Below, piece after piece: positions 60,335 to 63,071 of a stretch of 64,000 nt of DNA; position 1 is the first letter of the stretch, and each line of letters opens with the position of its first letter. The notes beneath the pieces were generated by a model. That model did no database searches. It worked only from the letters and a program-made list of their open reading frames with translations, and was not told where the DNA came from. The position numbers were made by a program, and so were the translations under genes. The stretch lies in the NCBI RefSeq assembly GCF_019428685.1, contig NZ_CP080095.1, positions 248,001-312,000 on the forward strand, given 5' to 3'. Origin of the DNA: Paraburkholderia edwinii (GTDB lineage: Bacteria; Pseudomonadota; Gammaproteobacteria; Burkholderiales; Burkholderiaceae).

Positions 60335-60913
60335 ATGGCGCTCAAATCGACAATCTATAAGGCCGAACTGCAGATCGCCGACATGGATCGGCACTACTAC
60401 GCCGACCATTCGCTGACCATCGCCCTGCATCCGTCCGAAACCGCCGAGCGGATGATGGTCCGCGTTGCTGCGTTCGCCCTGTTCGCCCAGGAACGGCTCG
60501 AGTTCTGCAAAGGCCTCTCTGACACGGACGAACCCGATCTCTGGCAGAAAGATCTGACCGGCGCGATCGAAACGTGGATCGATATCGGCCAGCCCGACGA
60601 GCGGCGCATCGCGAAAGCGAGCGGCCGCGCAAACGAGGTCATCGTGATCGCGTATGGCGGCCGGACCTCCGACATCTGGTGGCAAGGCGTGCGCGGCAAG
60701 GTCGAGCGGTTGCGCAATGTGACGGTCTGGTCGCTTGGCGAAGATGTCGCAGCGGCGCTCGGCGCGCTCGCGGCAAGAACGATGCGTCTGCAATGCACGG
60801 TGCAGGATGGCGCCGCGTGGCTCGGCAGCGCCGACGCCGATGCGGTGCCGATCGAATGGACGGTGTTGAAGGGCGCAGCGGACGCGCGGTCGGTTTCGCA
60901 GGGCGCGAAGTGA
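60335..60913 (+). CDS. yaeQ: YaeQ family protein
   Basis: A 192-aa protein from ATG 60335 beginning MALKSTIYKAELQIADMDRH, with HSLTIALHPSETAERMMVRV and KASGRANEVIVIAYGGRTSD. These are hallmark blocks of the YaeQ family, whose fold is PD-(D/E)XK nuclease-like but whose role is poorly known. An in-frame extension to 60266 is not supported. It is followed by a weak hairpin and a convergent VOC gene. Confidence 0.92.
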   Translation: MALKSTIYKAELQIADMDRHYYADHSLTIALHPSETAERMMVRVAAFALFAQERLEFCKGLSDTDEPDLWQKDLTGAIETWIDIGQPDERRIAKASGRANEVIVIAYGGRTSDIWWQGVRGKVERLRNVTVWSLGEDVAAALGALAARTMRLQCTVQDGAAWLGSADADAVPIEWTVLKGAADARSVSQGAK

Positions 60914-60949
60914 AATGAAGTAAGTGAGGCTGATCGCCTGGGCACCGGC

Positions 60950-60972
60950 GCCGACGTGGGCGTCGGCCTTTA
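60950..60972 (+). terminator. Hairpin between yaeQ and the VOC-family gene
   Basis: GCCGACG-TGGG-CGTCGGC, followed by CTTTAC. A GC-rich hairpin with a poor U tract, in a 56-bp convergent gap. Confidence 0.45.
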
Positions 60973-61395
60973 CAGCGACGTCGTCCGCGCCGCGTCCGGC
61001 GGCCCCTTCAGCTCGACCATATTGCCTTCCGGATCAAACAGGTACAGCGACGGCCCGAACCCGTCCGCGCCGTAACGCACCGCTTTTTCGCCGATGCGCG
61101 CGCCACGCTCGATCAGATGGGCCTCGAGCGCCGCTTCGTCGAACGGTTCGACGCGCAGACACAGGTGGTCCATATTCCGGCCTGCGGTGGGCGGTCCGCT
61201 ATCCGGACGGTCGATCTTCGCGCCGACCTGCAACAGATCGATCAGCGAGCGGCCGGCGCGCAACTGGGTCAATCCGATGTCGCGTTGTTCCTTCTCGACG
61301 CTGCAACCGAGCGCGTCGCAATAGAAGCGCGTCATCGCGTCGACGTCTTCGACCCTGATTACGACGTGGTCAATCTCGCGGATGTGAAACTTCAT
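60970..61395 (-). CDS. VOC-superfamily (glyoxalase/bleomycin-resistance-like) protein
   Basis: A 141-aa protein from ATG 61395 with GAGG upstream. A single VOC module: IREIDHVVIRVEDVDAMTRF with the metal-binding His, FYCDALGCSVEKEQRD, MDHLCLRVEP with a second His, and SLYLFDPEGNMVELKGP with the Glu. These metal ligands make a metal-dependent isomerase, lyase or dioxygenase possible. The substrate is unknown. A much longer in-frame extension to 62004 is spurious. Confidence 0.9.
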   Translation of the reverse strand: MKFHIREIDHVVIRVEDVDAMTRFYCDALGCSVEKEQRDIGLTQLRAGRSLIDLLQVGAKIDRPDSGPPTAGRNMDHLCLRVEPFDEAALEAHLIERGARIGEKAVRYGADGFGPSLYLFDPEGNMVELKGPPDAARTTSL

Positions 61396-61569
61396 GATTG
61401 CCGCCTCTTCAACTGGTTTGGAGCCGTGATGAAGAGTGTAGGGGATAGGCGGGAGGGCCGGGCGCAGCAGGGCAAAATGGGAAGATGACTTGCCGGAGAA
61501 CGCCGCCGCACACGGGACACGACCGCCCGGATACCAGCAACCGCAGGACCGCCACGAAACGTATGGACG

Positions 61570-61596
61570 AAAAAAAGCCCGCTGATTTGAGCGGGC
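61570..61596 (-). terminator. Intrinsic terminator of the putative sRNA
   Basis: GCCCGCT-CAAATC-AGCGGGC followed by seven T residues on the minus strand, a textbook rho-independent terminator and the likely Hfq-binding tail. Confidence 0.85.
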
Positions 61597-61630
61597 TGAA
61601 TCCATATCAGGAGGAGACATGGAGGAGACA
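61570..61630 (-). ncRNA. Putative trans-acting sRNA with twin anti-Shine-Dalgarno motifs
   Basis: On the minus strand a transcript starting near 61630 would read GTCTCCTCCATGTCTCCTCC. This places two copies of TCTCCTCC, complementary to ribosome-binding sites, in a likely single-stranded 5' part. It ends with a perfect GCCCGCT / AGCGGGC hairpin followed by TTTTTTT. A near-consensus sigma-70 promoter precedes it. The layout matches C/U-rich regulatory RNAs known in Burkholderia and alphaproteobacteria that pair with mRNA Shine-Dalgarno regions. Length about 60 nt. It lies between divergent ada and VOC genes and overlaps neither. Identity as an RNA gene is an inference from promoter, motif and terminator together. 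Confidence 0.72.
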
Positions 61631-61636
61631 GGAATC

Positions 61637-61665
61637 ACTATACACAACGGCCTACCGCGACGCAA
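61637..61665 (-). promoter_or_regulatory. Sigma-70 promoter of the putative sRNA
   Basis: On the minus strand TTGCGT (61665-61660) and TATAGT (61642-61637) are separated by exactly 17 bp. Transcription should start at about 61629-61630, just before the C/U-rich motifs. Confidence 0.7.
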
Positions 61666-61877
61666 TAACTTTTTAAGGGAAAACCCGATGTTGTGTCGTT
61701 TTGCCACATTGGCATAAGGACGGCGCTTCCGCCCCCAATAATTGGGAAGCGCAGGGAAGCCCCGGCCTGTGTCCAGCCGGGCAGCGACCGCGCAATGACA
61801 CAGCAAGAAGCGGAGCGTAGTGTGTCGACGTGCGCCGTAATCTGGGAACCGTCGAAACCTGTCCACGAGCGCTAACG

Positions 61878-63071
61878 ATGAAAACCGCATACTCCACCGA
61901 ATCCGACCGTTGGGCCGCCGTCGCGAGCCACGACGCGCAGGCGGACGGCGCCTTTTTCTACGCCGTGAAGACGACCGGCGTGTTCTGCCGCCCGTCGTGC
62001 TCATCGCGCCAGCCGCGCCGCGAGAACGTCGAATTCTTCGCGACCCAGGACGCCGCGCGCGCCGCCGGCTACCGCGACTGCAAGCGCTGTCAGCCGGGCG
62101 GTCTGCCGCGCGAGATGGACATCGTCAATCGCGCGTGCGCGGTGCTCGATGCGGACCCGCAGCAGCGGCTGACGCTCGCCCAGCTGAGCGACGCGGTGCA
62201 TGTGAGCCCGTTCCATCTGCAACGACTTTTCAAGCGCGTGGTCGGCGTGTCGCCGCGCCAGTATCAGGCCGCGCAGCGCGGCGCGGCGCTGCGCGACGCG
62301 CTCAAGCGGGGCACCAACGTCACGCGCGCCACGGTCGACGCCGGCTTCAGCTCGCCGTCGCGCATGTACGACACCGCGCCGGCTGAACTCGGCATGGCGC
62401 CGTCCGCGTATCGCCGCAAGGGCGCGGGCCTCGTCGTGCGCCATGCGAGCGCATCGACGCCGCTCGGCACCGTGCTCGTCGCGGCCACCGATCGCGGGAT
62501 CTGCAAGATCGCGTTCGGCGACGACCGGGCCGAACTCGTCGACGGACTCCGTGAGGAATTCGCGAACGCCGAACTCGTCGAGGATGCGGCACGGCTCGCC
62601 CCGTTCGTCGCGCAAATCGATGCGTACCTGCGTGGCTCGGAGCAGCGCGTCGACCTGCCGCTCGACATCGCGCCGACAGCGTTCCAGCAGCGCGTCTGGG
62701 ACGCGCTGCGTCGGATTCCGTACGGCGAGACGCGCAGCTACTCGGAGATCGCGGAAGCGGTCGGCTCGCCGCAGGCCGTGCGGGCGGTCGCCGGCGCGTG
62801 CGCATCTAACCCGGTGGCGCTGGCGATTCCGTGCCATCGCGTGCTGCATAAGGACGGGTCGTTGAGCGGCTATCGCTGGGGCGCGGAGCGCAAGGCGGCG
62901 CTGCTCGATGCAGAACGGCAGCACGGCGACGGCGCATCGCATGCGGCGCCGGCGAACGGCAAATCGACAAGCGGCGCGTCCACGGCTGCCGCCACTCGCG
63001 GCAGGGCAACCTCAAACGCAACCGCAACCCGCCAATCAAACCAAACCGCCGACCTGGGCCACGCCGCTTGA
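61878..63071 (+). CDS. ada: Bifunctional Ada regulator / O6-methylguanine-DNA methyltransferase
   Basis: Ada (397 aa from ATG 61878) repairs methylphosphotriesters and O6-methylguanine by suicide transfer and activates the adaptive response. Domains: the N-terminal zinc Ada domain (about 1-80) with GVFCRPSCSSR (methyl acceptor Cys at about 36) and YRDCKRCQPGG; an AraC HTH (about 90-185, LAQLSDAVHVSPFHLQRLFK); the methyltransferase domain (about 195-350) with IPCHRVLHKDGSLSGYRWG, acceptor Cys at about 319. The C-terminal ~50 residues are a low-complexity Ala/Thr/Ser tail. Its stop overlaps the next gene by four bases, so the repair pair is co-translated. Confidence 0.95.
   Translation: MKTAYSTESDRWAAVASHDAQADGAFFYAVKTTGVFCRPSCSSRQPRRENVEFFATQDAARAAGYRDCKRCQPGGLPREMDIVNRACAVLDADPQQRLTLAQLSDAVHVSPFHLQRLFKRVVGVSPRQYQAAQRGAALRDALKRGTNVTRATVDAGFSSPSRMYDTAPAELGMAPSAYRRKGAGLVVRHASASTPLGTVLVAATDRGICKIAFGDDRAELVDGLREEFANAELVEDAARLAPFVAQIDAYLRGSEQRVDLPLDIAPTAFQQRVWDALRRIPYGETRSYSEIAEAVGSPQAVRAVAGACASNPVALAIPCHRVLHKDGSLSGYRWGAERKAALLDAERQHGDGASHAAPANGKSTSGASTAAATRGRATSNATATRQSNQTADLGHAA

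Follow-up and report, generated by a model that had tools for sequence, protein, structure and literature searches.

The window analysed here, a stretch of 64,000 nucleotides from Paraburkholderia edwinii, carries on its minus strand, at 61569-61630, a small RNA gene of about 62 nt set between two protein-coding genes. Divergently upstream lies an ada-type gene (61878-63071, plus strand), in which Pfam finds an Ada zinc domain, an AraC helix-turn-helix and an O6-methylguanine methyltransferase; this gene is a neighbour and a syntenic marker, and stands outside the mechanism considered below. Downstream, a glyoxalase/VOC-family gene (60970-61395, minus strand, also by Pfam) provides a second syntenic marker. 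The only match above an Rfam cutoff in the whole 64 kb is that of the sRNA gene to RF02278 (Betaproteobacteria_toxic_sRNA, a double-hairpin RNA), with 77.9 bits against a cutoff of 50 (E 4.6e-14) and over the full length of the model (positions 1-64 of 64). Two other families were considered as its identity and ruled out by their sub-cutoff scores: RF02837 (anti-hemB) reaches 23.1 bits against 49.5, and RF02877 (NmsRb) 21.8 bits against 52.

The original prediction, read from the bare sequence, had proposed a 60-nt transcribed region for a C/U-rich sRNA, of a design with precedents in Burkholderia, that would cover many ribosome-binding sites (RBSs) in trans, and had named Rfam as a check; the family match agrees with it in kind. 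The feature is a real and ordinary member of the described RF02278 family, neither the family nor its likely mode of action being new. The gene is intact and conserved and has a promoter and a terminator of its own; the predicted free 5' tail complements the extended Shine-Dalgarno sequence before many starts.

Structure and transcription signals of the sRNA gene

The predicted fold (-24.9 kcal/mol, z -6.2, with none of 200 shuffles equally stable) comprises, from 5' to 3', a free tail of 7 nt, a hairpin of 8 bp and the terminator. The tail belongs to site 1, UGUCUCCUCC (61621-61630, minus strand), of which nt 1-7 are unpaired and nt 8-10 form the foot of hairpin 1 (61601-61623, minus strand), whose 7-nt loop UCCUCCU constitutes site 2 (61609-61615). 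The second hairpin is an intrinsic terminator followed by at least 4 U, recognised by terminator scan and fold alike at 61576-61597 (minus strand); this terminator, which had been read from the sequence as perfect, has an 8-pair stem (6 G-C), a 6-nt loop and a T-run, and the U-run extends to 61569. Unpaired probabilities near 1 are predicted for nt 1-7 and nt 16-22, and the CU-rich, RBS-complementary stretches fall in regions predicted to be unpaired, the first mostly in the tail and most of the second in the loop of hairpin 1. This 8-bp hairpin, like the Rfam identity, had been overlooked in the original prediction. In the consensus fold of 48 family members, which were hand-chosen and are not a random sample, both partners have changed together in one or more sequences at 8 of the 13 pairs, namely at 7 of the 8 terminator pairs and at one of the 5 pairs of hairpin 1; the latter is the outer pair, changed on both sides in 14 of the 48 sequences, and the other four never vary.

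The promoter that had been proposed on the minus strand, TTGCGT and TATAGT with a spacer of 17 nt, is present and is conserved above its surroundings in 79 ortholog rows, that of the window and those of 78 named loci (2 of the 80 named loci were omitted on account of short flanks). The -35 element (61660-61665, minus strand) is identical in 57 of the 79 rows, with a regional mean of 92%, and the -10 element (61637-61642, minus strand) in 42, with a mean of 86%, the spacer between them averaging 77%; mean agreement is 64% at -69 to -38, 45% at -120 to -70 and 37% at -180 to -121. Since TTGCGT agrees with the consensus at 3 of 6 bases and no promoter emerged from a generic sigma-70 scan over 60500-63000, the assignment is based on this conservation.

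The A/T-rich block GGGTTTTCCCTTAAAAAG, 5' of the -35 element (61669-61686, minus strand), belongs to the region with 64% agreement, against 37% further upstream, and is a possible UP element or regulator site. An A/T-rich stretch with TTGCGTCGC around the -35 element (window 61660-61686, minus strand) precedes two of the three copies of the family in this genome, that of the window and L002, and may likewise be an UP element or the site for some regulator. In the same genome, TTGCGTCGC-N14..19-TATA occurs at 2 places, both of them RF02278 promoters, a count that is weak by itself because the reversed control gave 4; with TGTCTCC downstream, the pattern is found twice and its reversal not at all. 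A promoter pattern with an upstream TTTT matched only the L002 copy and missed that of the window. The sequences upstream of other family copies differ, in agreement with a remark, in the accessible text of PMC5688073, that three of the four copies of strain J2315 have a common upstream motif. The copies L222, L223, L224, L235, L236, L237, L241 and L250 have GGTTTATACT in common shortly before their 5' end, which is another promoter-like sequence, so that sibling RNAs may have different controls.

Read antisense to the sRNA, the same nucleotides resemble a strong RBS followed by ATG, which would turn the locus into a plus-strand small ORF and leave no minus-strand RNA gene. A frame of 32 codons does follow that ATG in the window, but its length ranges from 7 to 63 codons over the 79 ortholog rows, 4 of which have no stop in the stretch, and the signals that are conserved are the minus-strand promoter and terminator. 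The variable length rules this ORF out, and its probability is practically nil.

Distribution and genomic context

RF02278 behaves as a multi-copy family, with 3-9 matches in each of 34 genomes of the same genus. Across 59 genomes, that of the window included, a match at E <= 0.001 was obtained in 49 and one over the cutoff in 42; in the other genomes of the order, at least one match was present in 14 of 24, and over the cutoff in 7. The genome itself holds three copies, including that of the window. Another lies between a 3-hydroxyisobutyrate-dehydrogenase-like gene and a gene of the semialdehyde-dehydrogenase family, and L003 adjoins an OsmC-like gene, upstream of frames read as rplM and rpsI, an identification made by eye from the translations. 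Nine sRNA copies, with altered loop motifs, are present in a genome from another family of the order (locus L233, G041:C1:1645960-1646802), where a tandem pair is separated by about 380 nt.

Among named genomes, at least 120 stretches contain the 32-nt 5' part of the sRNA in exact form; those listed belong to Paraburkholderia, Burkholderia, Caballeronia, Trinickia, Pararobbsia and Pandoraea. The named-loci set takes 80 loci from these stretches, so that its spread is a lower bound and the 32-nt core is present in it by construction. At 74 of these 80 loci, ada lies divergently upstream, with the alignment start 189-393 nt away, and at 63 a glyoxalase-like gene lies downstream. Of the six listed loci without ada, four extend no more than 330 nt upstream, and those of Pararobbsia alpina and Pandoraea nosoerga show no ada in the available stretch. 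The closest named locus among the matches listed is that of Paraburkholderia solisilvae, where ada is 90% and the glyoxalase-like gene 94% identical. When loci were instead fetched via the ada protein, independently of the pattern search, the exact 32-nt part was present at all 30 (29 relatives and the own genome). Conservation in close relatives, on which the original prediction had made itself depend, is therefore borne out by these 30 loci and by the conserved promoter.

An origin from a mobile element was ruled out, there being no phage or viral match and the window locus being syntenic chromosomal DNA: the search of 50,697 phage records gave no match, and one 24-nt pattern of the window subtype had no exact match in viral contigs. 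Partial matches occur in 25 Burkholderiaceae plasmid records, large secondary replicons among them, with 61-76% of the query covered in the 15 that are listed. The copies in plasmid records (e.g. H6, H8) come from Paraburkholderia, Caballeronia and Burkholderia, and 5 of the 25 records are predicted to be conjugative.

CU motifs, proposed mechanism and candidate targets

Two near-identical CU motifs 10 nt apart had been described at the locus. Two copies are indeed present, in fact as identical 9-mers, GTCTCCTCC, at 61621-61629 and 61610-61618; it is the spacing that needs correction, since their starts are 11 nt apart and the gap between them is 2 nt. GTCTCCTCC is found nowhere else in the window (2 copies against 0.36 expected, a number reached in 5 of 100 shuffles), and the paired-motif pattern gives 1 match in the window against 0.01 expected per shuffled window. 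This duplication is a feature of the RF02278 family, and the two motifs are not equivalent: one is the 5' tail and the other a hairpin loop, and nt 2-11 are invariant in all 48 aligned members while the loop motif is variable.

The suggestion that the duplication serves pairing with two targets is not supported. Both motifs are predicted to be largely accessible together, and candidate targets of S17, a related sRNA of B. pertussis, have been assigned to site 1 or site 2 (PMC11722255), which would suit an RNA that engages two different mRNAs simultaneously; the loop motif, however, varies within the family, and the mutational data for S17 concern sites that act on one same mRNA, the 5' site being required for repression of the one target dissected in the accessible part of that preprint and another site only enhancing it. 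Both CU stretches of ncS03 of B. cenocepacia have been modelled on one mRNA (PMC5688073), and the literature, as far as accessible, gave no evidence of a ternary complex. Simultaneous engagement of two mRNAs is thus very improbable.

Much better founded, and in our judgement highly likely, is that the window sRNA is an RF02278 member, probably the counterpart of ncS05, whose tail blocks the translation of mRNAs for carbon and amino-acid catabolism. The tail UGUCUCCUC would pair with GAGGAGACA just 5' of the ATG, opening the foot of hairpin 1 and blocking ribosome binding, while the loop UCCUCCU would offer a second, weaker contact and Hfq would putatively assist through the terminator U-run. 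The cell would then take up and break down smaller amounts of sugars, sugar acids and amino acids as its growth slows. Tail pairing, which we infer for the window sRNA, is proven by mutation for the related S17 in the accessible text of PMC11722255.

The complement of nt 1-9, in the form GAGGAGACA-N2..11-ATG, occurs at 27 places in the own genome and the reversed pattern at none; a 10-nt version, GGAGGAGACA-N0..12-ATG, occurs at 10 places against 1 reversed. Frames of at least 82 aa start at 23 of the 27 candidate ATGs and not at the other 4, and family scans place 18 of the 23, as a raw count, in transport or metabolism, with 5 other or unassigned. The candidates above curated cutoffs are glyoxylate carboligase, maleylacetoacetate isomerase, S-methyl-5-thioribose kinase, NuoM, a rhamnose ABC binding protein, a ketopantoate-reductase-family protein, an aminotransferase and a glucose-type PTS IIA domain. 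Assigned at family level only are two MFS transporters, a GlcD-like oxidase, a CoA transferase, an ABC permease, an AI-2E-family transporter, two short-chain dehydrogenases and an aldo/keto reductase, and a 3HB-oligomer hydrolase is assigned by Pfam. Cofold models, in which no decoy sRNA was compared, pair nt 1-8 unbroken in 18 of the 27 candidates, the remainder pairing in another register or via the loop.

Complementarity to site 1 of at least 7 nt is retained at all 28 usable loci of gcl, at 20 of 22 of the glcD-like gene and at 14 of 28 of maiA, where the site is missing in half, and at none of the 24 usable loci of ada, the single control gene. Each of these target searches covered 30 genomes, the own one included, and the loci used were 28 of 29 for maiA, 22 of 29 for the glcD-like gene, 28 of 29 for gcl and 24 of 30 for ada, the rest having failed the start check; L312, L342 and L372 (all G008) are omitted from the site-1 conservation count.

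In a 464-kb sample, GGAGACA, the complement of sRNA nt 1-7, precedes an open ATG more often than any other GGAGNNN word (in 10 of its 25 occurrences; for all words together, 167 of 1591); by fraction, ACA after GGAG comes third in this direct count, behind two words with 4 and 7 occurrences. An earlier enrichment, based on 94 usable starts among 284 genes from a rough gene caller and superseded by the direct count, had ACA after GGAG 6 times, tied with CGC, at 4.1, against a higher value of 4.5 for GAC; the starts in both counts are not curated. A general RBS preference could therefore yield much of the target signal, and the same preference explains how the RNA could act widely. It also leads to the speculative and rather doubtful idea that the sRNA family and the RBSs of the genome share a co-evolved code, sibling RNAs tuning the regulon via one RBS word; if true, siblings under different promoters could adjust how strongly the mRNAs of a large regulon for carbon and amino-acid catabolism are translated.

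The first rank of GGAGACA among the extended RBS words of the sample, like the generic nature of the UCCUCC core, could equally be expected of an unspecific anti-Shine-Dalgarno brake, which would slow growth by covering RBSs broadly and have no defined regulon. Such a 'toxic' action is in keeping with the name of the family, which derives from growth inhibition reported on cloning in E. coli (Sass et al. 2015, PMC4603805), but is hard to reconcile with the conservation of nt 1-4, which lie 5' of the generic core, or with S17, for which the accessible text of PMC11722255 gives no exponential-phase toxicity in E. coli BL21; the slower growth on NcS27 overexpression, moreover, was confined to some of the substrates, according to the accessible part of a review. 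We consider an unspecific brake improbable and retain blocking of catabolic mRNAs by the tail as the preferred reading.

The value added is modest and consists of a list of candidate targets in a new genome (gcl, glcD-like, maiA, sugar transporters, PTS protein), the same in kind as the published NcS27 effects and partly conserved in the genus, and of the match between the pairing tail and the commonest extended RBS word. The original observation is confirmed and its interpretation only partly supported: a genuine regulatory RNA had been recognised in the raw sequence and is now placed in a studied family, although the sRNA itself is of a known kind.

Comparison with known systems

Outside RF02278, CU stretches of the UCUCCUCC type can be aligned with the NmsR siblings of Neisseria (RF02877) and the anti-hemB RNA of Burkholderia (RF02837), which are not the same families. 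Within it, four members are reported from Herbaspirillum seropedicae, and ncS03, ncS05, ncS27 and ncS62 of B. cenocepacia J2315 are double-hairpin RNAs with CU-rich stretches, whose predicted interactions lie around gene starts in 55-80% (Sass et al. 2017, PMC5688073, accessible text). The window sRNA has in common with the J2315 RNAs the Rfam family, the two hairpins, the CU stretches in tail and loop, and the presence of multiple copies per genome.

The gene arrangement of ncS05, in which the downstream gene and the sRNA run in the same direction and the upstream gene is divergent (gene <-, sRNA <-, gene ->; PMC4603805, Table 3), is also that of the window. Judged by arrangement alone, the window sRNA is probably the counterpart of ncS05, which is flanked by BCAL0436 and BCAL0437, although the two belong to different genomes and measure 62 and 67 nt, respectively; the ada/glyoxalase-like synteny is also present at several other B. 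cepacia-complex loci (e.g. L102, L119, L120). Levels of ncS05 are reported to rise 3.5-fold in biofilm, 3.9-fold in starvation and 6.9-fold in glucose medium (PMC5688073).

As for ncS27 (NcS27; bdhR1 in the S17 preprint), growth is attenuated when this RNA is overexpressed and raised when it is silenced in planktonic culture, with no significant effect in biofilms, in the accessible text of PMC5688073; a 2024 review, also accessible in part, adds effects on genes of phenylalanine/tyrosine catabolism and carbohydrate transport. It belongs to the same family as the window sRNA and has the same invariant 5' motif, but it is a processed RNA of 92 nt, whereas the promoter of the window copy directly adjoins the 5' end and its hairpin 1 is a different one. 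The window sRNA therefore does not appear to be of the ncS27/S17 subtype, processed from a longer transcript with a non-adjacent promoter, given the conserved hexamers directly before its 5' end; the L003 copy beside OsmC, in contrast, resembles the ncS27 type.

S17 of B. pertussis, described as homologous to RF02278, has the same CU motifs in the 5' site and first loop and many transporter targets; it differs in that it is cut by RNase E from a 190-nt precursor and is Bvg-controlled, and it is not reported as toxic in E. coli BL21 (PMC11722255, accessible text). Two candidate genes tested there, BP0442 and BP1445, were not affected by S17, and matched mutations demonstrated that it represses BP2158 directly through site 1, the counterpart of the tail through which the window sRNA would act.
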